Source: Candidatus Kapaibacterium thiocyanatum (GTDB lineage: Bacteria > Bacteroidota > Ignavibacteria > Kapaibacteriales > Kapaibacteriaceae). From it: DNA of 64,000 bases. Location of the stretch: NCBI GenBank assembly GCA_001899175.1, contig MKVH01000009.1, positions 1-64,000 of the forward strand. The letters are read 5' to 3'. A model generated the notes under the pieces. The model saw nothing but the letters and a program-made list of their open reading frames with translations. It had not been told where the DNA came from and made no database searches. This document shows, one piece after another, positions 2,259 through 59,809 of the stretch. Position numbers and translations under genes: made by a program. The stretch's first letter is position 1; each line of letters begins with the position of its first letter.

Positions 2259-3593
2259 ATGAACATCACCATTCTCGGCGCAGCCCTCTCCGGTCTGGCC
2301 GCAGCACAGCTCGCACGGCGTACCGGCAACGACGTCTTCGTCACCGACGCGAAACCGGCCGAGAAGACATCGGAAGCGGTCGGCATCCTGAAACGCGAGG
2401 GAATCGCCCACGAGTTCGGCGGACATACCGATCGGGCACTCGAAGCGGACCTCATCGTCACATCTCCCGGCGTCCCTCCTTCGAATATCGTACGTCAGCG
2501 GGCGGCCGAACGCGGCATCCCCGTCATCGGGGAACTGGAATACGCATCGCGTATGATGACGAATCCCCTCATCGCCATCACGGGTACGAACGGAAAGACG
2601 ACGACGACGGCATTGACGGCATGGATACTGCAGCAGAGCGGGCGTTCGGCGGTAACGGCGGGCAACATCGGCACTCCCCTGTCGAGTCTCGTCGGCATGA
2701 TATCTCCCGATACCATCGTCGTCGTGGAAGCCAGCAGCTATCAGCTCGATACGACCGTCAGCTTCAGGCCACGCGTCAGCATCCTCACCAACGTCACTCC
2801 CGACCATCTTTCCTATCACGGCACATTTGAACAGTATGTGCATGCGAAGTGGAAAATTTTCGCTAACCAACGCGATAATGATGTCGTAGTTTTGAACGCA
2901 GATGACCCGCATGCAGCTGCGGGTGCATCGACGGCACAAGGGATGGTCTCCATGTTTAGTACTTCACATGAAGTGGAACGTGGGGCGTTCGTCCGGGGGG
3001 ACGAAATCATCCTGCGTGCCGGCTTGCAGCATAACGAGGAGATTCTCATGCCGGTACGCCGAATCGGACTGCCGGGAGTGCACAATTTGTACAACTCCCT
3101 TGCAGCCACCCTTGCCGCACGCGCCTTCGAAGTGCGCAACGAAGACATCCGCGACTCGCTCCAGTCGTTCGCCGGTGTCGAGCACCGCCTCGAATACGTA
3201 CGGACCTTCCATGACGTACGCTATTACAATGACTCCAAGGCCACGAACGTCAATGCCGCCTGGTACGCACTGGCGAGCTTCGATCGTCCGATCGTCTGGA
3301 TCGCCGGTGGCCGTGGGGACAACAACGACTACGGCCAGCTCGACGATCTGGTCGACACGAACGTGAAGGCCATCGTCTGCATCGGCGAGGAAACCGACAC
3401 CATCTTCAACCACTGGTGCACGCGCAAGCGCTGCGTCAAGTCGCCTACGCTGCAGGACGCCGTCCGCCACGCTTCGGAACTGGCGGAACACGACGATATC
3501 GTTCTCTTCTCGCCTGCCTGCAAGAGTTTCGACATGTTCGACAACTTCGAGCAGCGCGGCAGAGTCTTCAAGGACCTGGTCTCCCAGCTCTGA
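2259..3593 (+). CDS. murD: UDP-N-acetylmuramoyl-L-alanine--D-glutamate ligase
   Basis: MurD adds D-glutamate to UDP-MurNAc-L-Ala in the cytoplasm, the second amino-acid addition of peptidoglycan precursor synthesis. The 444-residue product has the normal family length. It begins with a Rossmann-like MNITILGAALSGLAA segment, carries the Mur-ligase ATP-binding loop ITGTNGKTTTT near residue 110, EASSYQLD and the NVTPDHLSYHG motif, then YYNDSKATN and, near the C-terminus, SPACKSFDMFDNFEQRG. The ATG at 2259 is chosen because the Rossmann start begins there; an upstream in-frame ATG at 2190 would add 23 unrelated residues. The gene is not inside a dcw cluster; it is followed after 13 bases by an ABC transporter operon. 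Confidence 0.95.
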   Translation: MNITILGAALSGLAAAQLARRTGNDVFVTDAKPAEKTSEAVGILKREGIAHEFGGHTDRALEADLIVTSPGVPPSNIVRQRAAERGIPVIGELEYASRMMTNPLIAITGTNGKTTTTALTAWILQQSGRSAVTAGNIGTPLSSLVGMISPDTIVVVEASSYQLDTTVSFRPRVSILTNVTPDHLSYHGTFEQYVHAKWKIFANQRDNDVVVLNADDPHAAAGASTAQGMVSMFSTSHEVERGAFVRGDEIILRAGLQHNEEILMPVRRIGLPGVHNLYNSLAATLAARAFEVRNEDIRDSLQSFAGVEHRLEYVRTFHDVRYYNDSKATNVNAAWYALASFDRPIVWIAGGRGDNNDYGQLDDLVDTNVKAIVCIGEETDTIFNHWCTRKRCVKSPTLQDAVRHASELAEHDDIVLFSPACKSFDMFDNFEQRGRVFKDLVSQL

Positions 3594-3606
3594 AAGCACC
3601 CTCCCG

Positions 3607-4514
<908 letters not shown>

Positions 4515-4518
<4 letters not shown>

Positions 4519-5354
4519 TGATCACGGCATTGCGCGTCGAACTCGCCAAGGTCTTCAGCAAGTGGCGCACGTTCATCGGCTTCATCGCCATGACGCTGCT
4601 CGTACCCGTCATCGTACTCGCGATGAGTGCGGAGGGTGGACAGTACTTCTCCTTCGCCATGCAGACACTGCAGCAGGCCTTCACCTTCACGGGCAATCTG
4701 ATGAACGGCTATACGGTAGCCTACATCATCTTCGGGGCGCTCTATCTCCACGTACCGTTCCTCGTGACGCTCGTGGCCGGGGACAGTCTCGCCGGCGAAG
4801 CCACGTCCGGTACCTATCGACTCCTCCTCACACGGCCGCTGACGCGCACGACGATGGTGACGTCGAAGTACCTCGCCTCCATGATCTACGTCAAGCTGCT
4901 CGTCCTGTGGATGGCCATCCTGTCGCTCGGTCTCGGCGTCCTCGTCCTCGGCACGGGCGAAGTCATCGTCATACGTTCCCAGATCACCATCATCGCCCAG
5001 AATGACGTCCTCTGGCGCTTCGCACTGGCCTATGCCTTCGCCATGCTGTCCATGATGACCGTCGCGAGCGTTGCCTTCCTCTGTTCGTCGCTCGTGGAGA
5101 ACAGCATAGGACCGATCATGACGACGATGGCCATCATCATCGTCTTCACCATCATCTCCGCCATCGATCTGCCGCTGTTCGACTCCATACGACCGTTGCT
5201 GTTCACCAATCACATGAACGGCTGGAAGCTGCTGTTCGACGATCCGGTCGACTGGTCGCGCGTGGCGACGTCGGCATCGGTACTCGCAGGACACATGGCC
5301 GCCTGCTACGGTGCGGCCCTAATCATCGTCAGAAGGAAGGATATCCTTACATGA
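4515..5354 (+). CDS. ABC-2 type transporter permease
   Basis: A 279-residue integral membrane protein with about six hydrophobic segments, starting with FIGFIAMTLLVPVIVLAM and ending with a C-terminal helix before a short basic tail (IVRRKDILT). The motif LAGEATSGTYRLLLTRPLTRT is typical of ABC-2 permeases of the NatB/CcmB-like class. It starts inside the stop of the ATPase gene and ends inside the start of the LolA-like gene, so three genes form one tightly coupled operon. Substrate unknown. Confidence 0.88.
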
Positions 5355-44564: not shown

Positions 44565-46982
44565 ATGCCCGTCTTCCCTGCCCTTCCCATCGTCGACGTC
44601 CTGCCATCGATCCTCGATGCATTGTCGGGACATTCGTCCTGCATCCTCGAAGCGCCGCCGGGTGCGGGCAAGACAACGATCGTTCCGCTCGCCCTGCTCG
44701 ACGCTCCCTGGCTGAAGGACAGGCGCATCATCCTGCTCGAGCCGAGACGCCTCGCCGCACGTGCCGCTGCACGACGTATGGCCGATCTGCTCGGCGAGGA
44801 CGCAGGACGCACCGTGGGCTACCGCATGAGGATGGATACGAAGGTATCGAACAGCACACGCATCGAAGTCGTGACCGAAGGGATCCTCACACGGATGCTC
44901 TCGTCCGACCCGACCCTCGCAGATACGGCCATCGTGATCTTCGATGAATTCCACGAGCGATCGCTGCAGGCCGATACCGGACTCGGTCTCTGTCTGCTCG
45001 GACGCGACCTCGGCGATACCGACCTGCGCATCATGGTGATGTCGGCAACGCTGTCGTCCCTCGACCGGTTACGCACGCTGCTGCCCGAGGGCACCCCGGT
45101 GATACGCTCGGAAGGACGGATGTATCCCGTCGAGACGACGTACATGACGTCGACGCCGACGCGCCATCTCGATCACCTGATGTCGGCCGCCATCGTGGAT
45201 GCCCTGCATGATCATGACGGCGACATCCTCTGTTTCCTGCCCGGCACGGCGGAGATACGCCGTACGCTCACCGCGGCGTCAACATCGTTGGACAAGGCAG
45301 GCATCACGAACGTCGATCTCATTCCACTCTACGGTGATCTCGATGTACGCGAACAGGATCGGGCCCTGCGTCCGTCACCGGCCACACGACGCAAGGTCGT
45401 CCTGGCCACGTCCATCGCCGAAACCTCCATCACGATCGACGGCGTCCGCGTCGTGATCGACGGTGGCCGCAGCCGCGAGCCACGATTCGATCCGCGTATC
45501 GGCATGTCCCATCTCGTCACCGTACCCGTCTCCCGCGATGCTGCGGAACAGCGTCGGGGTCGGGCCGGACGTACGGCCGAGGGGACGTGCATCCGGCTAT
45601 GGACGCGAACCGAACAGGAACAGCTTCCCGAGCGGAGATTGCCGGAGATCCTCACTGCGGACCTCGCTCCCCTCGCTCTCGACCTCGCAGCCTTCGGTGC
45701 ATCCGTACAGGACGTACCGTGGATCGACGCTCCACCCGACGGGCACTACCGCCAGGCGATCGAACTGCTCCGCGAACTCCATGCTCTCGACGACGACGGA
45801 AACATCACCTCCGATGGCCGCGAAATGGCCCGCATGGCCATGCATCCGCGAATGGCACATATGATCCGCAGGGCACCCGAAGCACGGCGCATGGCCCTCA
45901 TCCTCGCAGTCCTGCTCGGTGAACGCGACATCCTGCGCGCCGTCCGCGACGCCGATCTGCGTCGTCGTGTCGCCATCATCGATGGCATGCACGACGATCA
46001 GGCCGACATGCAGGCGGTACGTTCTGCGCGACAACGTCTGTCGGTGCTGGAACGTAATGCCGCCGATCCCGCATCGCCCCTCGATATGGACTCCTGTGGC
46101 CGCATCATGAGCCTCGCCTATCCGGACAGGATCGCACGACGCAAGGACGCCTCATCTCCATTGTATCTCATGCGGAACGGACGTACGGCGCGACTGTACG
46201 ACCATGATTCCCTGATTGAGCACGAGTGGCTCGCCATCGCAGCACTCGACGGTACGGCGAGCGACGTACGTATCGGGCTCGCAGCACCGATGACGGAAGA
46301 GGACGTGCTGGGCAATGCCGGACAGGATGTCGTGACGGTTCCGGTATTCGGTTGGGACGACGATGCAGGCACCGTCGTCGCACGCATACGTCGTTCTCTC
46401 GGCTCCATTGTCCTGCAGGAACACGACGATCCGGATGCGGATCCATATGCCATCGCAGCGGCCCTGGCGGAGCATTATGCGCGGAACGACTGGAAGGACC
46501 TTCCCTGGACGGATGCTGCACGCATCCTGTATCGACGCATGACGTTCGCCGGCATCGACGTTCCGATATCCGTATGGACGGAAGCCCTCGTCGGATGCCG
46601 GAAGCGCAAGGATGTGGAGCGGATCGACGTCCGTTCCATCCTGGATACCGCGATGTCATGGGAAGAACGCCAACGCCTCGACCGGCTTGCGCCGACGCAC
46701 TACACGGTGCCCAACGGACGCCGCATCGCGATCGACTATTCGGATCCGGAACGCCCCGTCCTGGCCGTACGGTTGCAGGACATGTTCGGTGTGAAAACGC
46801 AACCTCGCGTCGCCGATGGCCGCATCGTACTCACCGTCCACCTTCTCTCGCCTGCAGGACGTCCAATACAAGTGACACAGGATATAGGCGGGTTCTGGAG
46901 CGGAAGCTATGCGGAGGTGCGAAAGGAAATGCGAGGCAGATACCCGAAGCACACGTGGCCCGAAGATCCTACGACGATGTGA
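44565..46982 (+). CDS. hrpB: ATP-dependent helicase HrpB
   Basis: An 805-residue DEAH/RHA-type helicase. Motif I is LEAPPGAGKTTIVPLALL, Ia LEPRRLAARAAARRMA and motif II the DEFH variant IVIFDEFHERSLQAD. Motif III is VMSATLSS, V LATSIAETSITIDGVRVVID and VI EQRRGRAGRTAEG. The C-terminal HrpB-specific region includes PNGRRIAIDYSDPERPVLAVR. Its cellular role is not well defined. Its 3' end overlaps the convergent hisIE gene by 14 bases. Confidence 0.93.
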   Translation: MPVFPALPIVDVLPSILDALSGHSSCILEAPPGAGKTTIVPLALLDAPWLKDRRIILLEPRRLAARAAARRMADLLGEDAGRTVGYRMRMDTKVSNSTRIEVVTEGILTRMLSSDPTLADTAIVIFDEFHERSLQADTGLGLCLLGRDLGDTDLRIMVMSATLSSLDRLRTLLPEGTPVIRSEGRMYPVETTYMTSTPTRHLDHLMSAAIVDALHDHDGDILCFLPGTAEIRRTLTAASTSLDKAGITNVDLIPLYGDLDVREQDRALRPSPATRRKVVLATSIAETSITIDGVRVVIDGGRSREPRFDPRIGMSHLVTVPVSRDAAEQRRGRAGRTAEGTCIRLWTRTEQEQLPERRLPEILTADLAPLALDLAAFGASVQDVPWIDAPPDGHYRQAIELLRELHALDDDGNITSDGREMARMAMHPRMAHMIRRAPEARRMALILAVLLGERDILRAVRDADLRRRVAIIDGMHDDQADMQAVRSARQRLSVLERNAADPASPLDMDSCGRIMSLAYPDRIARRKDASSPLYLMRNGRTARLYDHDSLIEHEWLAIAALDGTASDVRIGLAAPMTEEDVLGNAGQDVVTVPVFGWDDDAGTVVARIRRSLGSIVLQEHDDPDADPYAIAAALAEHYARNDWKDLPWTDAARILYRRMTFAGIDVPISVWTEALVGCRKRKDVERIDVRSILDTAMSWEERQRLDRLAPTHYTVPNGRRIAIDYSDPERPVLAVRLQDMFGVKTQPRVADGRIVLTVHLLSPAGRPIQVTQDIGGFWSGSYAEVRKEMRGRYPKHTWPEDPTTM

Positions 46983-47577
46983 CCATCATACGCCGACCAT
47001 TCCGCGATGCCAGCCGCTCCTCCACTTCCGAAAACCGGTGGCCGCGTACGTGGAGCAGGACAAGGACGTGGTAGAGAAGGTCAGCAACTTCGTCGACCAG
47101 CTGCTCGGGCGCGGCAACGGCTGCGAGAGCTACTTCGAGGCCTTCCTCACCGACCTTCTGCGCACAGCGATGGATGCCCTCGCGCAGCAGACGTACGGTG
47201 TACGAATGCTGATCACCGGAAGCGCCACGCAGAGCGATGATGTCCTCGAGATCGGCAAGTCTGAATATGGCTTCCTGGTCATCGAAACATGATGGGCTTC
47301 CCGTATGGCATGTCGGTCCCGCCGGCCTGGCCTTGATGAGAAGGGAATCGGCATCGCAGTCGGCGTGAATGGAGACGACGTTCAGCACATTGCCCGACGT
47401 CTCGCCCTTCGTCCACAACTCCTGCCTCGAACGACTGAAGAAGGTGACCCGACGCGTCGTCATCGTCGTATCGTAGGCATCGCTGTTCATGTATCCGACC
47501 ATCAACACGGAACCACTGTCCGCATCCTGGACCACCACGGGGAGAAGACCCGTGATATCGTCATACTTGAGTATCAT
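46969..47577 (-). CDS. hisIE: Bifunctional phosphoribosyl-AMP cyclohydrolase / phosphoribosyl-ATP pyrophosphatase
   Basis: Catalyses steps 2 and 3 of histidine synthesis. The 202-residue product starts at ATG 47577, one base inside the hisF stop. The HisI half has SGSVLMVGYMNSDAYDTTMT, WTKGETSGNVLNVVSIHADC with zinc and Mg ligands (DCDADSLLI) and PTCHTGSPSCF. The HisE half has REGIHRCAQKVGEEGLEVAL and LVDEVADLLYHVLVLL. It is the last gene of the operon, and its 3' end overlaps hrpB. Confidence 0.95.
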   Translation of the reverse strand: MILKYDDITGLLPVVVQDADSGSVLMVGYMNSDAYDTTMTTRRVTFFSRSRQELWTKGETSGNVLNVVSIHADCDADSLLIKARPAGPTCHTGSPSCFDDQEAIFRLADLEDIIALRGASGDQHSYTVRLLREGIHRCAQKVGEEGLEVALAAVAAPEQLVDEVADLLYHVLVLLHVRGHRFSEVEERLASRNGRRMMVTSS

Positions 47578-48326
47578 CACCGCACCTCGATTGAACATGT
47601 CCGCAAATAGTTCTTGAGCGTATCGACCGTACACTCCCCCCGATGGAACATGCCTGCTGCGAGCACAGCGTCTGCTCCGGAGACCAGCGGGTCGACAAAA
47701 TGTTCCACTCGTCCGGCGCCACCACTGGCGATGAGCGGAAGCCGGACCGTATGCGCTACCGCCGCGATCACATCCGTATCGAATCCGTCCTTCGTACCGT
47801 CCCGGTCGATGGACGTACACAGTATCTCCCCTGCACCACGTCCCTCGGCCACACTGGCCCATTCCAGAGCATCGAGACCGGTCGTACGCTTCCCGGAGTG
47901 CGTCATGACCTGCCATACGTGGCCCTCACGACGGACATCGACGGCCAGAACGACGCACTGACTGCCGAAGGCTGCGGCACAGCGGTCGATCAGCGATGGA
48001 TCGGCCACGGCAGCGGTATTGACGGCGACCTTGTCGGCACCGCATCGCAACATGTGCTCCATGTCGCGTTCCGAACGTATGCCACCACCGACGGTGAACG
48101 GGATGGCTATGGCTGCGGCTACATCCTCGACGACGGCGGCGAAGGTCGACCGCTCCTCGATCGTCGCCGAGATATCGAGCAGCACGAGCTCGTCGGCGCC
48201 ATCCTGTGCGTAACGCATGGCCAGTGCAACGGGATCGCCCACATCGCTCAGGTTCTCGAACCGTATACCCTTCACGGTGCGCTTGCCCATGACGTCGAGG
48301 CACGGTATGATACGTCGGGCAGGCAT
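47577..48326 (-). CDS. hisF: Imidazole glycerol phosphate synthase cyclase subunit
   Basis: HisF uses ammonia from HisH to turn PRFAR into imidazole glycerol phosphate and AICAR. The 249-residue (beta/alpha)8 barrel starts at ATG 48326 (PARRIIPCLDVMGKRTVKG, with catalytic Asp in CLDV) overlapping the hisA stop by one base. Other marks are IPFTVGGGIRSERDMEHML, ADKVAVNTAA, EILCTSIDRDGTKDGFD (second catalytic Asp) and LIASGGAGRVEHF. Confidence 0.96.
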   Translation of the reverse strand: MPARRIIPCLDVMGKRTVKGIRFENLSDVGDPVALAMRYAQDGADELVLLDISATIEERSTFAAVVEDVAAAIAIPFTVGGGIRSERDMEHMLRCGADKVAVNTAAVADPSLIDRCAAAFGSQCVVLAVDVRREGHVWQVMTHSGKRTTGLDALEWASVAEGRGAGEILCTSIDRDGTKDGFDTDVIAAVAHTVRLPLIASGGAGRVEHFVDPLVSGADAVLAAGMFHRGECTVDTLKNYLRTCSIEVR

Positions 48327-49042
48327 CAGGACATCCCTCCGATTTCGTCGAGAATACGCTCGTCGTCGAGCCACGCCCGTCCGATCACCGCCCCATCCAT
48401 TCCGATGGCTGCCAGCCCGTTCATGTCTTCCCGTCCTCGTACGCCACCACTGGCGATGAGATGCGCAGAAGCATACCGTTCACGTAGACGTTCGTACGAC
48501 GCGAAGGCCGGCCCGTTCATCATACCGTCGCGGGAGATGTCGGTGATCATGAAGCGGCACAGACCTCTGTCCGTCATGTCGTCCATGACGTCGTCGATAC
48601 GGAACGATGAGGTCTCTTTCCATCCACGGATACGTACGGTTTCCGCAGCGACGTCGATGGCCACGATGATCGCATGCGACCCGTACTGCGCAGCGATATC
48701 ACCGACCGTACGGGGTTGTACGACGGCCAGTGTTCCAATGCAGACCATGGCCGCACCGGCATCGAGCAGGCGCCGTACATCGTCTCCGGTGGAGATTCCA
48801 CCACCGACGTCGACGACGAGCGAGGTCGTACGCGCGATCTCCGACACGACATCGAGGATGCCGTGTCGTCCACTGCGTGCTCCATCGAGGTCGACGAGGT
48901 GAAGACGCTTCATGCCCGCACGTTCCAGTCGATGGGCATAGTCGAGCGGTGATCCATCGTAGTACGTGACGTCATCGAAACGGCCATTCAGGAGGCGAAC
49001 GACACGTCCATCGAGAATGTCGATGGCAGGAACAGGTATCAT
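48326..49042 (-). CDS. hisA: Phosphoribosylformimino-5-aminoimidazole carboxamide ribotide isomerase
   Basis: HisA opens the ribose ring of ProFAR to PRFAR. A 238-residue barrel related to HisF: IPVPAIDILDGRVVRLLNGR with the catalytic Asp of AID, LHLVDLDGARSGR, VVDVGGGISTGDDVRRLL, ITDISRDGMMNGPAF and LIASGGVRGREDM. It overlaps hisH by four bases and hisF by one. Confidence 0.95.
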   Translation of the reverse strand: MIPVPAIDILDGRVVRLLNGRFDDVTYYDGSPLDYAHRLERAGMKRLHLVDLDGARSGRHGILDVVSEIARTTSLVVDVGGGISTGDDVRRLLDAGAAMVCIGTLAVVQPRTVGDIAAQYGSHAIIVAIDVAAETVRIRGWKETSSFRIDDVMDDMTDRGLCRFMITDISRDGMMNGPAFASYERLRERYASAHLIASGGVRGREDMNGLAAIGMDGAVIGRAWLDDERILDEIGGMS

Positions 49043-49623
49043 AGTCGGAGGAAATTGTTGAACAGACGTTGGCCATCGTCACCGCTCTTTTCGGGATGGA
49101 ACTGCACTCCTATGGTGAGCCCATCCACGACCGCCGCCGCGAATGACCGTCCGTGCCGGCATGTCGCAGCCCTTCGGCTGCTCACATCCGCGGCATAGGA
49201 ATGGACGAAATACATCCAGCTTCCTTCAGCGATGCCGTCGAATACGGTCGTCGAGATATCCGTGATCCTGCTCCATCCCACATGCGGGATCTTGCACCCT
49301 TCTGCATCCGGCAAACGGCGTACGATACCCGGCAGACGCCCGATGCACGGAACGTCGCCTTCCTCCGACCACTCGAACAGCACCTGCATACCGAGGCAGA
49401 TTCCGAGGAGCGGCATCGTACGGCGCCGCAGGACATCGACGAGCCCTGCTTCATGCAGCGACGACATCACTCTCGCCGCATGCCCTACTCCAGGCAGGAT
49501 GACGTGATGTGTCGATTCGACGACGCCGGCGTCTCTCGTGAGAACGGCTTCCCTGCCCGCACGACGTATCGCGTGGATCACGGATCGCACGTTGGCTGCG
49601 CCCGTATCGATGACAGCTACCAT
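49039..49623 (-). CDS. hisH: Imidazole glycerol phosphate synthase glutaminase subunit
   Basis: HisH is the glutaminase that feeds ammonia to HisF. The 194-residue class I amidotransferase starts at ATG 49623 (VAVIDTGAANVRSVIHAIRR), overlapping the hisB stop by one base. It shows the oxyanion strand ILPGVGHAARVMSSL, the nucleophile in LLGICLGMQVLFE (Cys), then YFVHSYAAD and GVQFHPEKSGDDGQRLF with the catalytic His-Glu pair. Confidence 0.95.
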   Translation of the reverse strand: MVAVIDTGAANVRSVIHAIRRAGREAVLTRDAGVVESTHHVILPGVGHAARVMSSLHEAGLVDVLRRRTMPLLGICLGMQVLFEWSEEGDVPCIGRLPGIVRRLPDAEGCKIPHVGWSRITDISTTVFDGIAEGSWMYFVHSYAADVSSRRAATCRHGRSFAAAVVDGLTIGVQFHPEKSGDDGQRLFNNFLRL

Positions 49624-50663
49624 CAGAGCCTCCCCTTCGACGAAGGGATGGCATCCGATGGCACGTCGCGAATTGCGTCGCGCAATGATCTGCCGAGTCC
49701 CTTGAACATGCTCTCTACGATGTGATGGTCGTTGACACCGTCCGACTCCATGTGCAGCGTACACCGCAGACCGTCGGCGAACGACCGGAAGAAGTGCTCC
49801 ACCATCTGTGTCGGCATGGTACCAAGACGCTCCTGACGCAATGCCGCCTTCCATCGGAGGAATGGTCGATCGCTCAGGTCCATGGCCACGAGAGTACGCG
49901 CCTCGTCCATCGGCAGCACGAATCCGTACCGACCGATCCCGCGCTTGTCTCCGAGAGCGTGTCGCAACGCCTCACCAAGAGCCAGGCCCGTGTCCTCGAT
50001 CGTGTGATGGTCGTCGACATGAAGATCACCAACCGTGGTGATCACGGCATCCATGCCGGCATGGACGACGATCTGCGTGAGCATGTGGTCGAAGAATCCG
50101 ATTCCCGTCGATATCGTACACGAACCGTCCCCGTCGAGGGCGATCCATCCGCCGATCCGCGTCTCCTTCGTCGTGCGGTCGATACCAGCTCTTCTTCGTC
50201 GTCGCTTGAGGAGTGAAGCGACCTCGTCCCATGACGACAGGTCATGTGCCTCCGGTACCGCACCGATAGTCGACGCAGTCCATTCGTCGACCAGCCGCAA
50301 CCGGCCGACCTCCGGAGCTATATCGAATGACGGGGTCCAGTCACCATGGCCGAGAACGAAGGAACGACCCGCATCCATGATTCCGTCGTATCGCCCGTTC
50401 GACCGATCGGCCCGGATTTCATCGAGCCCGATCCCTTCCGAAGCGAGAACGTCCGTCAGGATATTCCACGCCATTCGACGAGTATCGCCCTGCCATACGG
50501 ATCGTCCTTCGTCCGCAATCATCATCACCACATCGTAGCCCAGTCCGACGGCTACGCGCAACGCTCCGATGGCACCTTGCCGTAGCGACGGTATCGCTCC
50601 GTCATCATCGGTACGACGAAACAAGGTCTCTTCGCCATCCAGGAAGAGTATGGATCCATTCAT
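49623..50663 (-). CDS. hisB: Imidazoleglycerol-phosphate dehydratase with a degenerate N-terminal HAD domain
   Basis: 346 residues in the layout of bifunctional HisB. The C-terminal dehydratase (from about residue 165) is intact: GIGFFDHMLTQIVVHAGMD, DDHHTIEDTGLALGEAL and VNDHHIVESMFKGLGRS keep the manganese-binding His/Glu. The N-terminal histidinol-phosphate phosphatase half is not. DxDGT is changed to DGEET (Asp9 kept, Asp11 now Glu). The Ser/Thr-Asn motif is ADEG, the four zinc-binding Cys/His and the CRKP lysine are missing, and GDxxxD reads GHGDWTPS. It probably only dehydrates. It overlaps hisDC and hisH. Confidence 0.9.
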   Translation of the reverse strand: MNGSILFLDGEETLFRRTDDDGAIPSLRQGAIGALRVAVGLGYDVVMMIADEGRSVWQGDTRRMAWNILTDVLASEGIGLDEIRADRSNGRYDGIMDAGRSFVLGHGDWTPSFDIAPEVGRLRLVDEWTASTIGAVPEAHDLSSWDEVASLLKRRRRRAGIDRTTKETRIGGWIALDGDGSCTISTGIGFFDHMLTQIVVHAGMDAVITTVGDLHVDDHHTIEDTGLALGEALRHALGDKRGIGRYGFVLPMDEARTLVAMDLSDRPFLRWKAALRQERLGTMPTQMVEHFFRSFADGLRCTLHMESDGVNDHHIVESMFKGLGRSLRDAIRDVPSDAIPSSKGRL

Positions 50664-52912
50664 CGTTCACCCCTCAACGCATCGATGACCTGGACGTTCT
50701 GCTCGCGCGTACCCACCGTGATACGAAGGTGACCGACACAATCGATATCGTCGGTACGGCTCCGCACGAGGATGCCGCGACGTTCGAGCAGCGACGTCGC
50801 CCTATCCGCATCCCGCATACGCACGAACAGGAAGTTGGCCGAGGACGGATGAACGTCGACGACGTCATCGAGCAGCATCAACTGCGAGGCCAGCCAGTTA
50901 CGTTCGTCACCGATCGCCTGTACGGTCTTCTCCATCGTTCCGCCATGATGACGTATCGCATCCGCAGCCATGCGCTGCGTCATCGACGATACGTTGAACG
51001 GAGCACGGATCGCATCGATCGCGTGAACGACGTCGGGATGGGCGAGCAGCACACCGCAACGGAGCCCGGCCAGACCCCAGGCCTTCGACAGCGTACGCAG
51101 TACGATCAGCCTGTCCTCGTTCATGATCATCGACGTGCAGTCGGCATCCTCCGCGAACTCCACATAAGCATGATCGACGACGACGTATGCGGATGTTTCC
51201 CGAAGGAGCCTCAGAACATCGTCGAGTGGCGATACATTCCCCGTAGGGTTGTTCGGCGAACAGACGATGATCATGCGGACACTTTCGTCGACGGCTGCGA
51301 TGATGCCATCGACGTCGAGTGCGAATCCGTCCATGCGTCGTACGTTCCGTACGTCCACCTTCGATGCGGCGGCACAGCGGTCGTACATCACGAAGGTCGG
51401 AGGAGTGTTCACGACGACATCCCTCCTCGGTTCGCAGAGCGCACGTATGGCGAGATCGATCAGTTCGTCGCTACCGTTCCCGCAGACGATACGATCGGTC
51501 GGAAGGCCATAGTATCGACCGAGAGCCTGACGCAGGTCCGTACAGGCGGGATCGGGATAGCGGTGCAGATCGTCACCGTACGGTGAGCCGAAGGCGTTCT
51601 CGTTCGCATTCAGCGATATCGGCGTCAGACGCCGGGTAACGGCCCTGGCATGCGCTTCGAGTCGTTCAGTGCGCGCCAACGTCGTAACGGTCGGAGCGAT
51701 GGCCTGCAACGCCGACTCCGTCGCACGCTGCACCGTCATCGTCACGCAGAAACTGTCCAGCGTCACGCCACTGACACGTCCCGCCCATCCTCCCGTCGGC
51801 AACGTATGGTTCGTACCGCTCGCATAGTCTCCAAGCGATTCCGGTGTGTACGGTCCGAGGAATACCGATCCTGCCGCCGTGATCCTGCCGCAGACCTGTT
51901 CGAGACAGTCGGGATCACCATCGTCCATGATCACGATGAGGTGTTCGGGTGCATAGTCGTTCGTGAAGGCGATGGCCTCGGCCCGATCGTCGAAGACGAT
52001 GGCCAGACCATGTTCGAGAGCACGTCCTGCGATATCCTTCCTGGGCAGTATGGCAAGTTGTTCATCCAGGGCCTTGTACGTACGCTCGACCGATGCGGCA
52101 CTCGTCGTGACCAGCACCACCTGACTGTCCGCACCATGCTCGGCCTGAGCGAGAAGGTCCGCCGCAACGGATTCGGCATCGGCCGTTTCGTCGCAGAGCA
52201 CCAGCACTTCCGATGGACCGGCGGGAAGATCGATGGCCACGCCATACAGCGATGCACGCTGCTTCGCAGCCGTGACCCATGCATTACCCGGACCGAGAAT
52301 CTTCTTCACCGGCTTCACGGATTCCGTGCCGTAGGTGAGCGCTGCGATGGCCTGCACGCCGCCGATGGCATGCACTTCACGAATGCCGCACAGTACGGCG
52401 GCAGCCATGATGGAGACGTCGGGTCGACCCGTCGATGGATCGGGTGGAGAACAGATGACGATACGTCCGCACCCCGCCTCGACGGCAGGGATGGCGAGCA
52501 TGAGTACCGTCGAACACAACGGAGCGGATCCACCGGGAATGTAGAGCCCGACCGCATCGATCGGCCTCGTCTCCATCCTGCATATCAGGCCTGGCATCGT
52601 TTCCACCTCGACGGCAGGCCGGCGCTGGGCGTTGTGGAACGTGCGGATATTCCCGGCAGCCGTTCGCATCGCCGTGATCGTGTCGGCATCGAGCATGGAC
52701 GACGAACGCTGCAGTACGTCGTCGGGAACACGACTCGTCACGATGTCGACATCGTCGAACTGGCGTGTCCAGCGACGAACGGCGGCGTCGCCACGCTGGC
52801 GGACGTCATCCATGATGACCGCGACGTCCGACCACAGCGCTTCAGGATCGGCTACGGGTCTGCGCGTCAGTGACATCCATCGTTCACGTGGCGGGTTGAT
52901 GATCGTCTTCAT
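50660..52912 (-). CDS. hisD-hisC: Fused histidinol dehydrogenase - histidinol-phosphate aminotransferase
   Basis: A 750-residue single chain starting at ATG 52912. Residues 1 to about 425 are HisD: GLYIPGGSAPLCSTVLM, KKILGPGNAWVTAAKQ, zinc/catalytic residues in LLAQAEHGADSQ (Gln, His), DYAPEHLIVI (Glu-His), SLGDYASGTNHTLPTGG (Asp) and ERLEAHARAV (His). Directly after TRRLTP comes HisC without its N-terminal arm: SLNANENAFGSPYG, CGNGSDELIDLAIRALCEP, VCSPNNPTGNV, VVDHAYVEF, the PLP Lys in LRTLSKAWGLAGLRCG and LRITVGTREQNVQVIDAL. No stop or start lies between. The two enzymes act at steps 8 and 10/9, respectively. Overlaps hisG and hisB by four bases each. Confidence 0.94.
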   Translation of the reverse strand: MKTIINPPRERWMSLTRRPVADPEALWSDVAVIMDDVRQRGDAAVRRWTRQFDDVDIVTSRVPDDVLQRSSSMLDADTITAMRTAAGNIRTFHNAQRRPAVEVETMPGLICRMETRPIDAVGLYIPGGSAPLCSTVLMLAIPAVEAGCGRIVICSPPDPSTGRPDVSIMAAAVLCGIREVHAIGGVQAIAALTYGTESVKPVKKILGPGNAWVTAAKQRASLYGVAIDLPAGPSEVLVLCDETADAESVAADLLAQAEHGADSQVVLVTTSAASVERTYKALDEQLAILPRKDIAGRALEHGLAIVFDDRAEAIAFTNDYAPEHLIVIMDDGDPDCLEQVCGRITAAGSVFLGPYTPESLGDYASGTNHTLPTGGWAGRVSGVTLDSFCVTMTVQRATESALQAIAPTVTTLARTERLEAHARAVTRRLTPISLNANENAFGSPYGDDLHRYPDPACTDLRQALGRYYGLPTDRIVCGNGSDELIDLAIRALCEPRRDVVVNTPPTFVMYDRCAAASKVDVRNVRRMDGFALDVDGIIAAVDESVRMIIVCSPNNPTGNVSPLDDVLRLLRETSAYVVVDHAYVEFAEDADCTSMIMNEDRLIVLRTLSKAWGLAGLRCGVLLAHPDVVHAIDAIRAPFNVSSMTQRMAADAIRHHGGTMEKTVQAIGDERNWLASQLMLLDDVVDVHPSSANFLFVRMRDADRATSLLERRGILVRSRTDDIDCVGHLRITVGTREQNVQVIDALRGER

Positions 52913-53817
52913 TCTATCAGCTTCTCGATAGGTGTCACAAGGATGCCTTCGGCGCCATTGGCGCGCAGCTCGTCGATGATGTCCCAGAACCGGTCTTCGG
53001 GAATGACTGCATGGACGCTGCTCCATGCCGGACGTGCGAGCGGCATCACGGTAGGGCTCTGCAGTCCTGGCAACAGATGGATGATATCGGCGAGAGCGGC
53101 GTTCGGCGCATTGAGGAAGATGGCCCGCATCGACCGGGCGCGAAGGACGGCATCGATCCTGAACAGCAGCCGGTCGCGTTCCGTCACCGTCGCCTCGTTC
53201 ACCGCATCGTTCACGATCACCACCGCTTCGGACTGCATCACCGTCTCCACTTCACGAAGACCGTTCATGAGCAGGGTCGACCCCGAGCTCACCAGATCGC
53301 AGATCGCATCGGCGAGACCGATGCTTGGTGCGATCTCCACCGAGCCGCTTATCTCGTGAACGTCGGCCACGACACCCTGACGACGCAGAAAGTCATTCAG
53401 TAAACGCGGATACGATGTCGCGATCCGCAGGCCCCGCAGATCGTTCGTTCCCGAATAGTCCATCCCTCGAGGCATGGCGATGGAGAGACGGCATCGGGCG
53501 AAGCCGAGACGCCGGACGATCATCGCACGGCATCCATGCTCGGTCACGACGTTGTCGCCGAGGATACCCGCATCCGCCACTCCCGACGCCACCGCATCGC
53601 AGATGTCGTCGTCGCGGAGAAAGAGCACGTCGAGAGGAAGGTTGGCGGCAGGCAGTACGAGGCGTGCCTCCTGATGTCCGAGGGAAAGACCGCATTCGCG
53701 CAGAAGGCGCAGTGAATCATCCGTCAGACGGCCACTCTTCTGAACGGCAAGACGGAAGGGCCTTAGGCGTCGGGCCACGGCGGTTCGATTCGGCAGGGAC
53801 GTCATGATCATGGGCAT
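52909..53817 (-). CDS. hisG: ATP phosphoribosyltransferase, long form
   Basis: HisG condenses ATP with PRPP, the committed first step. The product has up to 302 residues, the length of the long form with a C-terminal regulatory ACT-like domain, so no HisZ is needed. It has FRLAVQKSGRLTDDSLRLLR, DICDAVASGVADAGILGDNV, LRGLRIATSYPRLLNDFLRR, EISGSVEIAPSIGLADAICD and a C-terminal domain to GILVTPIEKLIE. Starts at 53817, 53811 or 53805 are possible; no Shine-Dalgarno decides. The attenuator terminator ends 10 bases upstream, so hisG is the first controlled gene. Confidence 0.94.
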   Translation of the reverse strand: MPMIMTSLPNRTAVARRLRPFRLAVQKSGRLTDDSLRLLRECGLSLGHQEARLVLPAANLPLDVLFLRDDDICDAVASGVADAGILGDNVVTEHGCRAMIVRRLGFARCRLSIAMPRGMDYSGTNDLRGLRIATSYPRLLNDFLRRQGVVADVHEISGSVEIAPSIGLADAICDLVSSGSTLLMNGLREVETVMQSEAVVIVNDAVNEATVTERDRLLFRIDAVLRARSMRAIFLNAPNAALADIIHLLPGLQSPTVMPLARPAWSSVHAVIPEDRFWDIIDELRANGAEGILVTPIEKLIE

Positions 53818-53827
53818 GGACTCGATG

Positions 53828-53867
53828 AAAAAGAAAAAGGGCCGTTCCCGGTGAGAGAACGGCCCTT
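53828..53867 (-). terminator. His operon attenuator terminator
   Basis: AAGGGCCGTTC (53867-53857), loop TCTCACCGG, GAACGGCCCTT (53847-53837), then TTTCTTTTT (53836-53828): an 11-bp perfect stem with a T-tract, located between the histidine-rich leader peptide and hisG. It would stop transcription before hisG when formed. The segment 53862-53849 (CCGTTCTCTCACCG) can instead pair with leader bases 53921-53910. Confidence 0.9.
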
Positions 53868-53892
53868 GATGGGTCGATTGCTATGGTCGGAA

Positions 53893-53997
53893 TCAGCCGA
53901 TTCGCGTCACCATTCTCACCGCACGACAGCATACACCGTGATGCACATGGATGTGCACGGCGTGATGATGGGTGCGATGATGGTTGCGGCTGATCAT
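53893..53997 (-). CDS. hisL: Histidine-rich his operon leader peptide
   Basis: A 34-codon open frame begins at ATG 53997 and ends at TGA 53895-53893. Nine histidine codons lie at positions 6, 7, 10, 11, 12, 15, 17, 19 and 20 (HHRTHHHAVHIHVHH). A promoter-like box ends eight bases upstream of the ATG. Codons 26-30 overlap the antiterminator segment 53921-53910 (CGGTGAGAATGG). When histidyl-tRNA is scarce, a ribosome stalled at the His run leaves that segment free; with ample histidine a ribosome moving to the stop covers it. No independent function of the peptide is expected. Confidence 0.9.
   Translation of the reverse strand: MISRNHHRTHHHAVHIHVHHGVCCRAVRMVTRIG
53910..53921 (-). promoter_or_regulatory. 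Antiterminator segment of the his attenuator
   Basis: CGGTGAGAATGG on the minus strand can pair with CCGTTCTCTCACCG of the terminator (53862-53849) over 12 base pairs: eight (CGGTGAGA with TCTCACCG), a two-base bulge, then ATGG with CCGT including one G-U. The helix takes six bases of the 5' terminator arm and the loop, so it excludes the terminator. A separate pause-type hairpin CCGTG..CACGG lies within the His codons. Confidence 0.8.
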
Positions 53998-54005
53998 TGT
54001 GACGG

Positions 54006-54038
54006 CAAAGCTAGAATCGTTTCGAGGACATTTCCAAA
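54006..54038 (-). promoter_or_regulatory. Probable his operon promoter
   Basis: On the minus strand TTTG (54038-54035) and TAGCTTTG (54013-54006) are separated by 21 bases, the spacing and consensus (TTTG - about 19-21 - TAnnTTTG) of Bacteroidota primary promoters. The transcript would begin a few bases before the leader peptide ATG at 53997. Confidence 0.65.
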
Positions 54039-54168
54039 TATCCTTCCGATATCATCACCGCCATTACCATCGTCGAGGCCCTGCGGAATCGGGATCGGAG
54101 CTCCCTTTCGAATTTCTTTAGAATCGTCCCGTTGCTTTGCACATCCCACATCAGGACGAACGGAATCC

Positions 54169-55515
54169 ATGAAGCCAAGGATGTCGATATGGGCGCTGTC
54201 GGTCATCACGACCCTGGTCGGCTGCGCTACCGAAAGCAGGGTGAATCGCAGGACGATCGACGACGCAGTGAAGGCGTATTCCGGTGCCGGTATCGGTGAG
54301 CGCAAGGAAGCCGGGCGCTTCGACCTCCCGCCAGGTATCACGCTGGATAGCGGAATCACGATCGACGATGCGGTCGCCATCGCCCTTCGCAACAACGCAC
54401 AGTTCCAGGCCGATCTGGCTTCCATGCCCATCGCCGAGGCGGATGTCGTCGATGCCGGAACGATTCCGAATCCCGTCCTGCGCTACCTCTCGCCGAACGC
54501 GGGAATCGTGGCCCAGGGGTATCTCAACGTGGCCATCGACGTCCTGTGGCAGCGACCTGCCCGTATCGAAGCCGCACAACGGGATGCGGAACGCATGGCG
54601 TCCCTGCTCATACGTCGCAGCTACACACTGATCCGCGATGTACAGGTCGCCTATATCGATCTCCAACTGGCGCGCGAACGTGCGCATCTGCTCACGGAAA
54701 ACCTTGCCTTGCGAACCCAGCTTTCCGAGATCGCCGGTTCACGGCTGCGGCACGGAGACATCAGCGATCTGGAAGCCACCGTCTCACGGACGGACTCCGC
54801 GACTGCGGCCGACGACCTGCAACGTGCCGTTCTCGATACACTTCTGCTCGGCAACAGACTCACGACACTCCTCGGAATGCAGACGACCGATACGACGCTC
54901 CGGCTCACGGTGAAGAAGGTACATGATTCCCTCGTCCTGCTTCCGAAGGAGCGCTATCTCGAACTCGCCTGGTCCTATCAGCCGGAAATGGTTGCAGCGA
55001 AGGCCGCCATAGAAGCCGCGGGAGAACGGATCGGATGGGAGAAGTCGAAAGTCGCCTCGCTCACCGCAGTGCTCAACTATCAACACGTCAACGGCACATC
55101 AGGTAATGCATGGCTTCCCAATGCCGTGAATCCCGGCATACAGATCGAACTGCCGATCCTGAACCGGAACCAGGGCAAGATCATGCGGGCGGAAGCGGAG
55201 CTGGATCAGGCCATGCTGCAATACGTCGCCTTACGACAGCGCATCGCACTCGACGTAACGGATTCGTACAACAGATACGCACAGGTGTGGAACTCCTGTG
55301 CCATCTGGAATACCGACATGCTTCCTTCGCTCGAACAGGCCGTACGGCTCGTACGGGAATCGTACAGACGCGGCGATATCTCCTACCTCCCCGTACTGGA
55401 AGCCATGCGCCAGCTCGCGAACGGCAAGCTCAGGAAGGCGGAGATCGAGGCGGAGCTGCAACGAACGGTAAGTCAACTGAATTACAGTATCGGCAAGAAT
55501 ATCCCAGGTCAATGA
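54169..55515 (+). CDS. Outer-membrane efflux lipoprotein, TolC/CusC-like
   Basis: A 448-residue OEP family protein with a lipoprotein signal (SIWALSVITTLVGC). It carries the two OEP halves: DSGITIDDAVAIALRNNAQF and IPNPVLRYLS first, then QPEMVAAKAAIEAAGERIGW and NPGIQIELPILNRNQGKI, with a long coiled helix between (VQVAYIDLQLARERAHLLTE). The start at 54169 is chosen because the lipoprotein signal begins there. It is the first of seven co-oriented genes and forms the exit duct for the RND pump encoded downstream. Confidence 0.9.
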   Translation: MKPRMSIWALSVITTLVGCATESRVNRRTIDDAVKAYSGAGIGERKEAGRFDLPPGITLDSGITIDDAVAIALRNNAQFQADLASMPIAEADVVDAGTIPNPVLRYLSPNAGIVAQGYLNVAIDVLWQRPARIEAAQRDAERMASLLIRRSYTLIRDVQVAYIDLQLARERAHLLTENLALRTQLSEIAGSRLRHGDISDLEATVSRTDSATAADDLQRAVLDTLLLGNRLTTLLGMQTTDTTLRLTVKKVHDSLVLLPKERYLELAWSYQPEMVAAKAAIEAAGERIGWEKSKVASLTAVLNYQHVNGTSGNAWLPNAVNPGIQIELPILNRNQGKIMRAEAELDQAMLQYVALRQRIALDVTDSYNRYAQVWNSCAIWNTDMLPSLEQAVRLVRESYRRGDISYLPVLEAMRQLANGKLRKAEIEAELQRTVSQLNYSIGKNIPGQ

Positions 55516-55516
55516 C

Positions 55517-56710
55517 ATGCGTCGACTCCGTCATATCGCTCTCTGCACGGCATCCACTTCCCTGCTCTTCGCATGCGGACCGGATCACGATCAACCGCAC
55601 GAACCGCCAGCCTCGGTGGACAGGATCATGAAGGAGGCCGACCTGAATACGGTCACCCTCACGGACAAGGCCATCGAACGACTCGGCATCACGACCGCAG
55701 CAGTGGAGCGCAGATCCGTCGGCGACAGTCGGCTCGTCGCTGGAGAGGTCATCGCCATGCCGGGCCGTACCGTGACGCTCACCGCACCAATGGCCGGTAC
55801 GGTGCTCGATGCGAAGCCGGGTGACCCACTCACGTCAGGACGCAGTGTACGCAGAGGCCAGCGCCTGTTCCGGCTGCTCATCCTGCCATCCGAACGCGAT
55901 CTGCTCAGCGCCCGCGAGGATGTCGCACAGAAACAGGTGCAGTACGATGTCGTCGTCGAGAAAGTGCATCGGGCCGAACAGCTCCTCAAGGAACGTGCAG
56001 GAAGTGTAAGGGCCAAACAGGAGGCCGATGCCGAGCTTGCGGACATCACGGCGTCGCTGCGCGTCGCACAGGCACGACTCGAGTTGCTACGCGGTCATCC
56101 GAACGGCGACCTCGCGGATCGTCTGTCCACCCTCGACGTCGAAGCGCCGATCGAAGGGATGATACAGCGAGTCTTCATCGGCTCTTCGCAGGTAGTGGCG
56201 ACTGCAGCTCCCATCCTCGAGCTGACGTCGACATCGACGCTCTGGGTACGCGTTCCCGTCTACGCCGGTGATGCGGACCGGATCGATCGTATGGCGAATG
56301 CATACATCCAGTCCCTGTCCGGCGATTCTCCCGAACATCCTTCCATCGCCGCACGCCCGGTGAACGGACCGATGACGGCCGACCTCGTAGCCACATCCGT
56401 CGATCTGTATTACGAGATCGACAACAGGAACGGACGCTTCCGTCCGGGACAACGTATCGGCGCATCGATTCCCCGGCAGGGACGGCAATCGTCCCTCGTG
56501 ATAGCGTTCTCCGCCGTGCTCTACGATCCGTCCGGCGGCACATGGATATACGAACGCACGGGTGATCGCACGTTCGTGAGGCGAAGAGTGGAAGTGGATC
56601 ACGTCGAAGACGGAATGGTCGTCCTGCGGAGAGGTCTGACCGAAGGTACACGGGTCGTCACGACCGGTGCGGCGGAGTTGTTCGGCACGGAGTTCGGAGG
56701 AGGCAAGTAA
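55517..56710 (+). CDS. RND efflux periplasmic adaptor lipoprotein, CusB/CzcB-like
   Basis: A 397-residue membrane fusion protein with a lipidation site (TSTSLLFAC). Features are LGITTAAVERRSVGDSRLVA, the lipoyl-type TLTAPMAGTVLDAKPGD with its partner VEAPIEGMIQRVFIGSSQ, a coiled hairpin SAREDVAQKQVQYDVVVEKV and a barrel end with IAFSAVLYDPSGGTWIYERT. It begins one base after the TolC-like stop and ends immediately before the pump gene. Confidence 0.9.
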   Translation: MRRLRHIALCTASTSLLFACGPDHDQPHEPPASVDRIMKEADLNTVTLTDKAIERLGITTAAVERRSVGDSRLVAGEVIAMPGRTVTLTAPMAGTVLDAKPGDPLTSGRSVRRGQRLFRLLILPSERDLLSAREDVAQKQVQYDVVVEKVHRAEQLLKERAGSVRAKQEADAELADITASLRVAQARLELLRGHPNGDLADRLSTLDVEAPIEGMIQRVFIGSSQVVATAAPILELTSTSTLWVRVPVYAGDADRIDRMANAYIQSLSGDSPEHPSIAARPVNGPMTADLVATSVDLYYEIDNRNGRFRPGQRIGASIPRQGRQSSLVIAFSAVLYDPSGGTWIYERTGDRTFVRRRVEVDHVEDGMVVLRRGLTEGTRVVTTGAAELFGTEFGGGK

Positions 56711-59700
56711 GTGCGCCATTTCATCTCGCTCTCCATGCGACTGCGGATCATCGTCGTCGCCCTCATGGCCCTGCTGATGATCGTCGGTATCCAGGTACTG
56801 AAGAACGCCTCGTTCGACGTCTTTCCGGAGTTCGCGCCACCTTACGTGGAGATCCAGGTCGAGGCGCCCGGTCTGTCCACCGCCGAGGTCGAGGCCCTGC
56901 TCGCTGTTCCCATCGAGAATGTTCTGAACGGCGTCCCTCATGCCACGCATCTTCGATCGAAGTCCGTACCGGGCCTGACATCCATCGTCCAGCACTTCGA
57001 ACACGGTACGGACATCATCCAGGCACGACAACTGGTTCAGGAACGCCTCAGCAGGGTGACTCCACAACTGCCTGCGGTAGCACGGCCTCCCGTCATGCTC
57101 AGTCCATTGTCATCGACAAGCAGGGTGCTGAAGATCGGCGTGAGTTCGCATACACTGACGCAGATGGAAATGACGACGCAGGTCCGCTGGACACTGCGGC
57201 CACGGCTCATGTCGATTGCCGGCGTGGCCAATGTGGCGATCTGGGGACAGCGCGACAGGCAACTTCAGGTATGTGTCGATCCCGAGCGACTCTATGCGAA
57301 CAACCTCACGCTCGCCCAGGTCACTACCGCCGTTCAGGACGCCACACGTCAGTTCGGTGGAGGTTTCGTGGACATGCCCAATCAACGGATCGCCGTCTCC
57401 AACGTACCGCACGTCTACGATGCCCGTGATCTGTCGGCTATCGCCCTCCCCACCGCGAACGGAGCGTCCGTGCGCCTCGGCGATCTGGCCGACGTCATGG
57501 AAGGATATCCTCTCCCCATCGGCAATGCCATCGTCAACGATGGCCCCGGGCTTCTGCTCATCGTGGAGAAGCAGCCCGGCGCGAACACGCTCGACGTGAC
57601 GAGGCAGGTCGAAGCCGTCCTGCGTGAAATGACTCCTGCAATGAAGGGTATGACCTTCGATTCCACGATCTTCCGTCCGGCCACCTACATCGAGATGTCG
57701 CTGCACAATCTCAACAAGGCCCTGCTCATCGGTTGTACCCTCGTCGTCATCGTACTCTTCTTCTTCCTCCACGACTGGCGCGTCGCTCTCATCAGCGTGA
57801 CGGCCATTCCGCTATCGCTCGTCGTGGCGGCACTCGTCCTGCACTATCGCGGCGGCACCATCGATACGATGGTACTCGCCGGACTGATCATCGCGCTCGG
57901 TGAAGTGGTGGACGATGCCATCATCGACGTGGAGAACATCGTGCGGCGATTGCGCGAGAACGCGCTTCGACCCGATCCCCTGCCGGCCTTCCGCGTCGTA
58001 CTGGAGGCCTCGATGGAAGTGCGCAGTGCTGTCGTCTTCGGCAGCATGATCGTCGCCCTCGTCCTGATACCGGTCTTCTTCCTTCCCGGTCTGTCGGGTG
58101 CCTTCTTCCAGCCGTTGGCCCTGTCCTACGTCCTGGCCATCATGGCATCGCTCTTCGTTGCCCTGACACTCACACCAGCCCTGTCCCTGCTCCTTCTGCC
58201 GAAGGCATATGGACACGGCACCGACAAGTCGCATCGCGTCGAACCGAAGGTCGTGCTGTGGATGAAGGGTCGCTACGAAGCCGCACTCCATCGTATTCTC
58301 GAACGACGGCGCGGCATTCCCGTCGTGCTCGCAGGAATCGTCGTCGTCACGATGGCCATCGTTCCCTTCCTCGGCGAAGAGTTCCTGCCGCACTTCAGGG
58401 AATACGACTTCCTCATGCACTGGGTCACGAAGCCCGGTACGTCACTCGACGAGTCGACGCGCATCACGCAACGTGTGAGCAAGGAACTGCGCGCGATCCC
58501 CGGTGTGCGCAACTTCGGTGCCCATATCGGCCGTGCGGAGGTCGCCGACGAGGTGGTAGGATCGAACTTCACGGAGAACTGGATCAGCGTCGATCCGACC
58601 GTCGACTACGACAGTACCGTAGCCCGCATCCAGAGCGTCGTCGACGGTTATCCCGGTCTGCACCGTGACGTGCTCACCTATCTGCGCGAGCGCGTGAAGG
58701 AGGTCCTGACCGGCACGAGCGCCAGTATCGTCGTGCGCATCTATGGTCCGGACCTTGGAACACTGGAACGCAAGGCCAAGGAAGTGGGTGCTGCACTGGT
58801 GTCCATCGACGGCGTCTCCGATCTGAAAGTACAGCCTCAGACGCTGGTACCGCAACTCGCCGTACGGTTCGATGCTGAACGTGCGGCATGTTTCGGTGTG
58901 ACGGCGACCGACGTCCGACGCACCATCGCCACGATCGTGAATGGTGTCAAGGCCGGAGAAGTCTACGACGACCAGAAGATCTTCGACGTCGTGGTGTGGG
59001 GGCGACGCGAGCTCCGTACCGACATCGAACGGATCCGCGACATTCAGGTCGATCTTCCTCGTGGTGGCCGTGTTCCGCTGAAGGACGTCGCCGATATCCA
59101 TATCGCTCCGACGCCGAACGAGATCACGCGTGAGCTCTCGTCGCGCCGTATCGACGTCACCTGCAATACCAGGGGTCGCGACCTCGGAAGCGTGGCGCGT
59201 TCCATCGAAGACAAGCTCCGCACGATCCCCTTCGATGCAGGATACCATCCCGAGATACTCGGCGAGTATGCCGAACGGCAGGAATCGCAGCAGAGACTCT
59301 ATGCGCTTGCTCTCCTCTCCATCCTGGGTATCTTTCTCATCCTCTACGCCGACTTCGCGTCCTATCGCCTGTCCCTGCTCGTGCTGCTGAGTCTCCCCTT
59401 CGCACTTGCCGGCTGCGTGATGAGCACGACGATGACGGGAGGCATCCTCTCGCTCGGCTCGCTGGTAGGATTCGTCACCGTGCTCGGAGTCGCTGTCCGT
59501 AACGCCATCATGCTGATAAGTCACTATCGTCATCTCGAAGATGTCGAAGGCGAAGGATTCGGACTCCGCCTCGTCGTCCGCGGTGCACTGGAACGGCTCG
59601 TTCCCATTCTCATGACGGCCTTGACGGCAAGTCTCGCCCTGCTTCCCATCGTGGCGACCGGTGACAGGCCCGGCCAGGAAATCGAGTATCCGATGGCCAT

Positions 59701-59809
59701 CGCAATCCTCGGTGGCCTGACCACGTCGACCGTCCTCAATCTGTTCTTCCTGCCGGCCTTGTACCTGCGTTTTGGACGACCATATATCGCTTCGGCACAG
59801 GAATCATGA
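56711..59809 (+). CDS. CzcA/CusA-like RND efflux pump
   Basis: A 1032-residue RND permease beginning with GTG directly after the adaptor stop. It has [40 protein letters not shown], the TM4 relay region [40 protein letters not shown], and TM10-11 [20 protein letters not shown]. The heavy-metal DFG-x-x-x-D motif reads LGEVVDD, so metal export is not certain and an organic substrate is possible. It forms a tripartite system with the two preceding gene products. Confidence 0.92.

Follow-up and report, generated by a model that had tools for sequence, protein, structure and literature searches.

Classical attenuation requires close coupling of transcription and translation. Bacteroidota are without Shine-Dalgarno sites and have an unusual promoter, and to our knowledge little is known about transcription-translation coupling in this phylum; Vitreschak et al. 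2004 reportedly cover some Bacteroidetes/Chlorobi attenuators. The locus described here lies in a 64-kb stretch of DNA, the whole of which is called the window below. It resembles the enterobacterial hisL attenuator (RF00514) in its His-codon leader peptide, its alternative antiterminator and terminator and its predicted control of the his operon, and the window shares the gene order GDC[NB]HAF[IE] with the enterobacterial his operon (PMC8305728). Unlike hisL, the window has a Bacteroidota promoter, no expected Shine-Dalgarno site, an AUG about 8 nt past the -7 box, interspersed His codons, and an antiterminator segment located in the last leader codons, with three segments only.

In Firmicutes, his attenuators have been described for the Bacillus cereus group, Peptostreptococcaceae and Erysipelotrichales, in a study in which Bacteroidota were not treated (PMC9413887). 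As in the window, these consist of a His leader peptide, a terminator and an antiterminator before his operons, but they belong to another phylum and carry three to five consecutive His codons, whereas those of the window are interspersed (PMC9413887). The his genes of the Bacteroidota superphylum have been surveyed, with attenuation mentioned for enterobacteria only (PMC8305728). A structured 5' element without Rfam hit was reported before hisG in Flavobacterium psychrophilum and other Flavobacteriaceae, together with clues to leader-peptide attenuation before amino-acid operons in F. psychrophilum (PMC9723704); for hisG, the main text of that paper describes neither a peptide nor a helix. 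The F. psychrophilum element is like that of the window in being structured and belonging to Bacteroidota, and differs from it in leader, stems and spacing. The principle of attenuation is classical, and both a hisG 5' element and attenuation clues are already on record for Flavobacterium in that paper.

Rfam scans of the window and of the leader region identified no family matching the element. His_leader (RF00514) was matched neither at the gathering threshold across the window nor around the leader with E values allowed up to 5, and no T-box riboswitch model matched upstream of the operon in the same scans, on which ground T-box and other known RNA families were rejected.

The histidine operon and its leader

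On the minus strand, a promoter, a leader and a U-tailed terminator precede hisG-[DC]-[NB]-H-A-F-[IE], which encodes the complete histidine pathway (Table 1). The hisD and hisC genes are fused into a single ORF in each of the two family genomes that carry hisG, in the window and at 2510-4816 (-) of L185, while the conclusions of a survey of 91 superphylum strains name hisIE and hisNB fusions only (PMC8305728). The gene on the far side of the attenuator is divergent and TolC-like; it belongs to a plus-strand efflux cluster (53851-59809), in which it is accompanied by genes for a membrane-fusion-like protein and a large RND-type pump. Read from its mechanical start, the first ORF of the cluster (53851-55515) crosses the attenuator, and a lipoprotein-like start near 54170 looks likelier.

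Table 1. Coordinates of the features of the putative his attenuator and of the his operon in the window
Feature	Position	Strand	Evidence
-33 promoter element, TTTG	54035..54038	-	Read directly; of 73 box-bearing relatives, about 60 have TTG 18-21 nt upstream of the -7 box
-7 promoter element, TAGCTTTG, Bacteroidota TAnnTTTG type	54006..54013	-	Read directly; motif enriched before relatives' leaders
Leader peptide ORF, 34 codons, nine His, MISRNHHRTHHHAVHIHVHHGVCCRAVRMVTRIG	53893..53997	-	ATG at 53997, TGA ends at 53893; chance test; similar leader in G003
Regulatory His codons 6-20, putative stall zone	53938..53982	-	Leader translation; stall states modelled
Segment 1, protector helix partner of segment 2	53972..53984	-	MFE and centroid fold
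Segment 2 (codons 25-30), partner of segment 1 or, via 53921-53914, of terminator 53856-53849 (antiterminator)	53909..53924	-	Folding, duplex comparison
Stop-region arm, partner of 53995-53987 around the leader start	53891..53899	-	Folding
Intrinsic terminator (segments 3 and 4): hairpin of 13 pairs with a 5-nt loop, then T-tract	53837..53867	-	Folding; sequence
hisG, long form, first operon gene	52909..53817	-	TIGR00070 (E 4.5e-52) and TIGR03455
hisD-hisC fusion ORF, probable start near 52912	50660..53026	-	TIGR00069 (residues 68-466), TIGR01141 (residues 459-785)
Remaining operon: hisNB, hisH, hisA, hisF, hisIE	46969..50663	-	NCBIfam matches

The His richness of the leader is far beyond chance. 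Nine of its 34 codons (6, 7, 10-12, 15, 17, 19 and 20) encode His, and among the ORFs of 10-60 codons in the window it is the only one with at least six His in 16 codons, of which it has nine. A first-order Markov simulation of 150 windows yielded no ORF with at least seven His and 0.07 ORFs per window with at least six. A search with a His-codon pattern returned nine scattered matches. The leader RNA was predicted to fold at -72.3 kcal/mol, compared to -52.3 ± 4.2 kcal/mol for shuffled sequences (z -4.8).

Promoter and leader start

The putative promoter reads TTTG-N21-TAGCTTTG and fits the Bacteroidota primary-sigma promoter (TTTG near -33, TAnnTTTG near -7), for which the consensus quoted in PMC7366714 was used. 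The box pair, its Bacteroidota type and the 34-codon leader with nine His codons had all been proposed in a first-pass annotation of this DNA, and each was found as described. For comparison, about 158 hisG loci were gathered from the order, class and phylum and from a public genome collection; the sample is non-random, includes close relatives and consists mostly of Bacteroidota with a few Acidobacteriota. At 117 of these loci there is a His-rich leader, as a rule some 21 codons long and containing HHHH or a similar motif. TAnnTTTG occurs within 60 nt upstream of the leader in 73 of the 117, versus 4.6 expected from shuffles, and TTG is found 18-21 nt before the -7 box about 60 times in these 73 loci, versus about one occurrence per spacing elsewhere.

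In the window the leader ATG (53997) follows the -7 box by 8 nt. The box-to-AUG distance is at most 11 nt in 34 of the 73 loci with a recognisable box (window included), with a peak at 7-10 nt, and amounts to 15-35 nt in many other relatives, including most of the Flavobacteriaceae-like ones. Because the box is centred near -7, the start that we infer from it would leave a 5' UTR of about 5 nt, and transcription in the window probably starts only a few nucleotides before the leader AUG. Where the AUG lies at most 11 nt from the box, an almost leaderless mRNA is expected. Such mRNAs are rare in Bacteroidota: only about 3.7% of the 5' UTRs of B. thetaiotaomicron are shorter than 10 nt (PMC7366714), and leaderless mRNAs make up 5.5% in F. 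psychrophilum (PMC9723704).

On balance, we lean towards the view that the Bacteroidota his attenuator is a compact, near-leaderless form, in which transcription would start a few nucleotides from the leader AUG, the ribosome would load, with no Shine-Dalgarno site to guide it, on the bare 5' end as this emerges from RNA polymerase, and the antiterminator would lie inside or adjoin the last leader codons. Of all parts of the attenuator, this architecture is the likeliest to be new. If true, a his attenuator of this kind, found throughout the phylum and having a defined peptide, three competing helices and an almost leaderless start, would be a ready reporter for coupling and leaderless initiation in Bacteroidota, and would warrant a new RNA family for many unannotated leaders.

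In twelve loci of Saprospirales/Lewinella type (L013, L016-L020, L022, L027, L028, L030, L038 and L121), a tRNA-Phe(GAA) gene lies directly 5' of the His leader and no TAnnTTTG box was found before the leader. These attenuators may be co-transcribed with, or processed from, the tRNA transcript.

Competing helices and modelled switching

The predicted fold of the free RNA contains a 9-bp helix between segment 2 and segment 1, the latter comprising His codons 6 and 7 with their neighbours; this helix links the start region of the leader to its stop region. The first leader codons are also paired with the stop region. In the alternative pairing, the antiterminator, 53921-53914 (CGGUGAGA) forms eight contiguous pairs with 53856-53849 (UCUCACCG). 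The first-pass annotation had proposed a 12-bp helix (53921-53910 with 53862-53849), of which these eight pairs stand; four more are possible past a 2-nt bulge, and the figure of 12 is slightly generous because AUGG favours a local hairpin in the model. It had likewise been right about a terminator followed by a T-tract (TTTCTTTTT, directly after the hairpin), the stem having 13 pairs instead of the 11 proposed. Segment 1 and the very short distance between promoter and AUG were absent from that annotation and are added here.

Equilibrium folding was rejected as a test of switching, since the completed terminator prevails in all states modelled; the switch must therefore be kinetic, as in classical attenuators, and truncated nascent RNAs were used instead. 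These RNAs ended at 53849, just past the terminator loop, or four bases further, the RNA upstream of and under the stalled ribosome being removed, and the kinetic decision is approximated by such truncated RNAs only. In the RNA ending at 53849, the 2:3 pairing reached 0.97-0.98 with the ribosome stalled at each of the nine His codons, versus 0.00 with no ribosome, in which case the 1:2 pairing was 0.68. The earlier proposal that a stall in codons 6-20 frees segment 2 agrees with these values. With the ribosome at the stop codon, downstream RNA alone remains in the model and the terminator forms. By an approximate argument, a ribosome of normal footprint on the stop codon would reach back to about 53913 and cover the 3' end of segment 2 only, most of this segment lying just behind it, so that the earlier suggestion that the ribosome covers the segment is partly right; attenuation probably also depends on 1:2 pairing behind the stop-codon ribosome, which is the likelier reason for termination in this state.

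We interpret the element as an attenuator of his operon transcription that is ribosome-mediated and works through three competing helices (probability about 0.92). A short leader ORF rich in His codons is located upstream of the operon, an intrinsic terminator separates it from the first gene, and a mutually exclusive antiterminator is freed by a stall in the model. This interpretation, already advanced in the first-pass annotation, passes every available sequence test, with a complete pathway downstream; it is well supported by sequence and modelling, from which we infer the regulation itself, with ribosome stalling and readthrough in the cell. When histidyl-tRNA is scarce, the ribosome would stall in codons 6-20 and keep segment 1 from pairing; segment 2 would then pair with the 5' arm and loop of the terminator before the 3' arm is synthesised, and transcription would continue into hisG and the genes behind it. 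In the terminating state, segment 2 would be displaced by the ribosome or captured by segment 1 behind it, allowing the 3:4 terminator to form and RNA polymerase to halt before hisG. Without translation, the 1:2 helix would form and transcription would likewise stop.

Conservation, alternatives and distribution

Judged from sequence, the element is not exceptional in the phylum, being one of many putative Bacteroidota his attenuators; the His codons and the alternative pairing, for which the first-pass annotation had proposed a comparison with relatives, recur across Bacteroidota, and Flavobacteriia-type relatives in the locus set have His leaders and terminators. The best duplexes between the segment following the His codons and the terminator arm average -13.9 kcal/mol, versus -7.8 kcal/mol for shuffles, and in 64 of 83 non-redundant loci no more than 5% of shuffles attain the observed complementarity. 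The value for the window taken singly is weaker, its pairing with the terminator arm being equalled by 7% of shuffles, although no segment from another locus pairs with that arm as well as its own. Compensatory changes, also suggested earlier as a check, were found in a 23-sequence alignment at six of eight terminator pairs, a number reached by none of 500 shuffles. In the same alignment, antiterminator cells were paired in 88% of cases versus 29-52% when slid by 1-3 columns, with two pairs changed on both sides, no more than in column shuffles.

Within the family (G000-G022), hisG and hisB were identified in only two of 23 genomes, and a genome of the same genus (G001), listed as 100% complete, has neither; histidine auxotrophy thus seems common in the family. 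The other hisG-bearing genome, G003, has a HisG 61% identical to that of the window and a similar leader and terminator (MTRLSPSLVSHHTNHRHHALHHGACCIVGTGRVV, then GGGCCGTTCTCGCACGAGAACGGCCC and T-runs), and HHG(V/A)CC follows the His codons in both leaders. The antiterminators of these two are offset by 2 nt in their pairing register, and a claim of covariation between them was given up for this reason.

The leader might instead govern translation of hisG and not its transcription, the hairpin merely hiding or spacing the hisG start without termination, and the annotated start of hisG is indeed only some 20 nt from the hairpin. Its 13 pairs and T-tract have, however, the form of an intrinsic terminator, and hairpin and T-run are kept in 97 of the 117 His-leader loci, 19-46 nt past the leader stop and in many cases well away from the hisG start; we regard this explanation as very unlikely. 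Still less probable is that the attenuator is intact in sequence but its regulation lost here, as a relic or by constitutive readthrough. The patchiness of the operon in the family would fit such a loss, but every operon gene is open in the window, nothing is missing from the leader, the promoter or either of the alternative pairings, and the element is kept in G003 despite 39% HisG divergence.

That a His-rich ORF adjoins the terminator of another transcript by chance has a negligible probability and is already contradicted by the comparative data. The plus-strand ORF 53851-55515 does overlap the region, but no such leader arose in the 150 simulated windows, His-rich leaders recur before hisG phylum-wide, and the neighbouring gene is divergent, which leaves the terminator without a transcript from upstream to stop.

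In a HisG tree, the window and G003 were joined with a support of 99/98, and family f7 of the same order was placed elsewhere. The tree, whose backbone lacks resolution and for which composition and long branches were flagged, favours neither gain nor loss of the operon, and a claim that it was inherited vertically in the order was dropped. The f7 loci (L039-L047) have hisG without a His-rich leader, and in several of them another coding sequence abuts hisG. The HisG of one phylum-level relative in the comparison set is identical to that of Neolewinella aquimaris, which places the genome of the window in Bacteroidota. Outside Bacteroidota, His-rich leaders (RHHHHHAIDHQH and HLHRHHAHRHHH) were found before hisG in two Acidobacteriota loci (L023 and L024, Pyrinomonadaceae).
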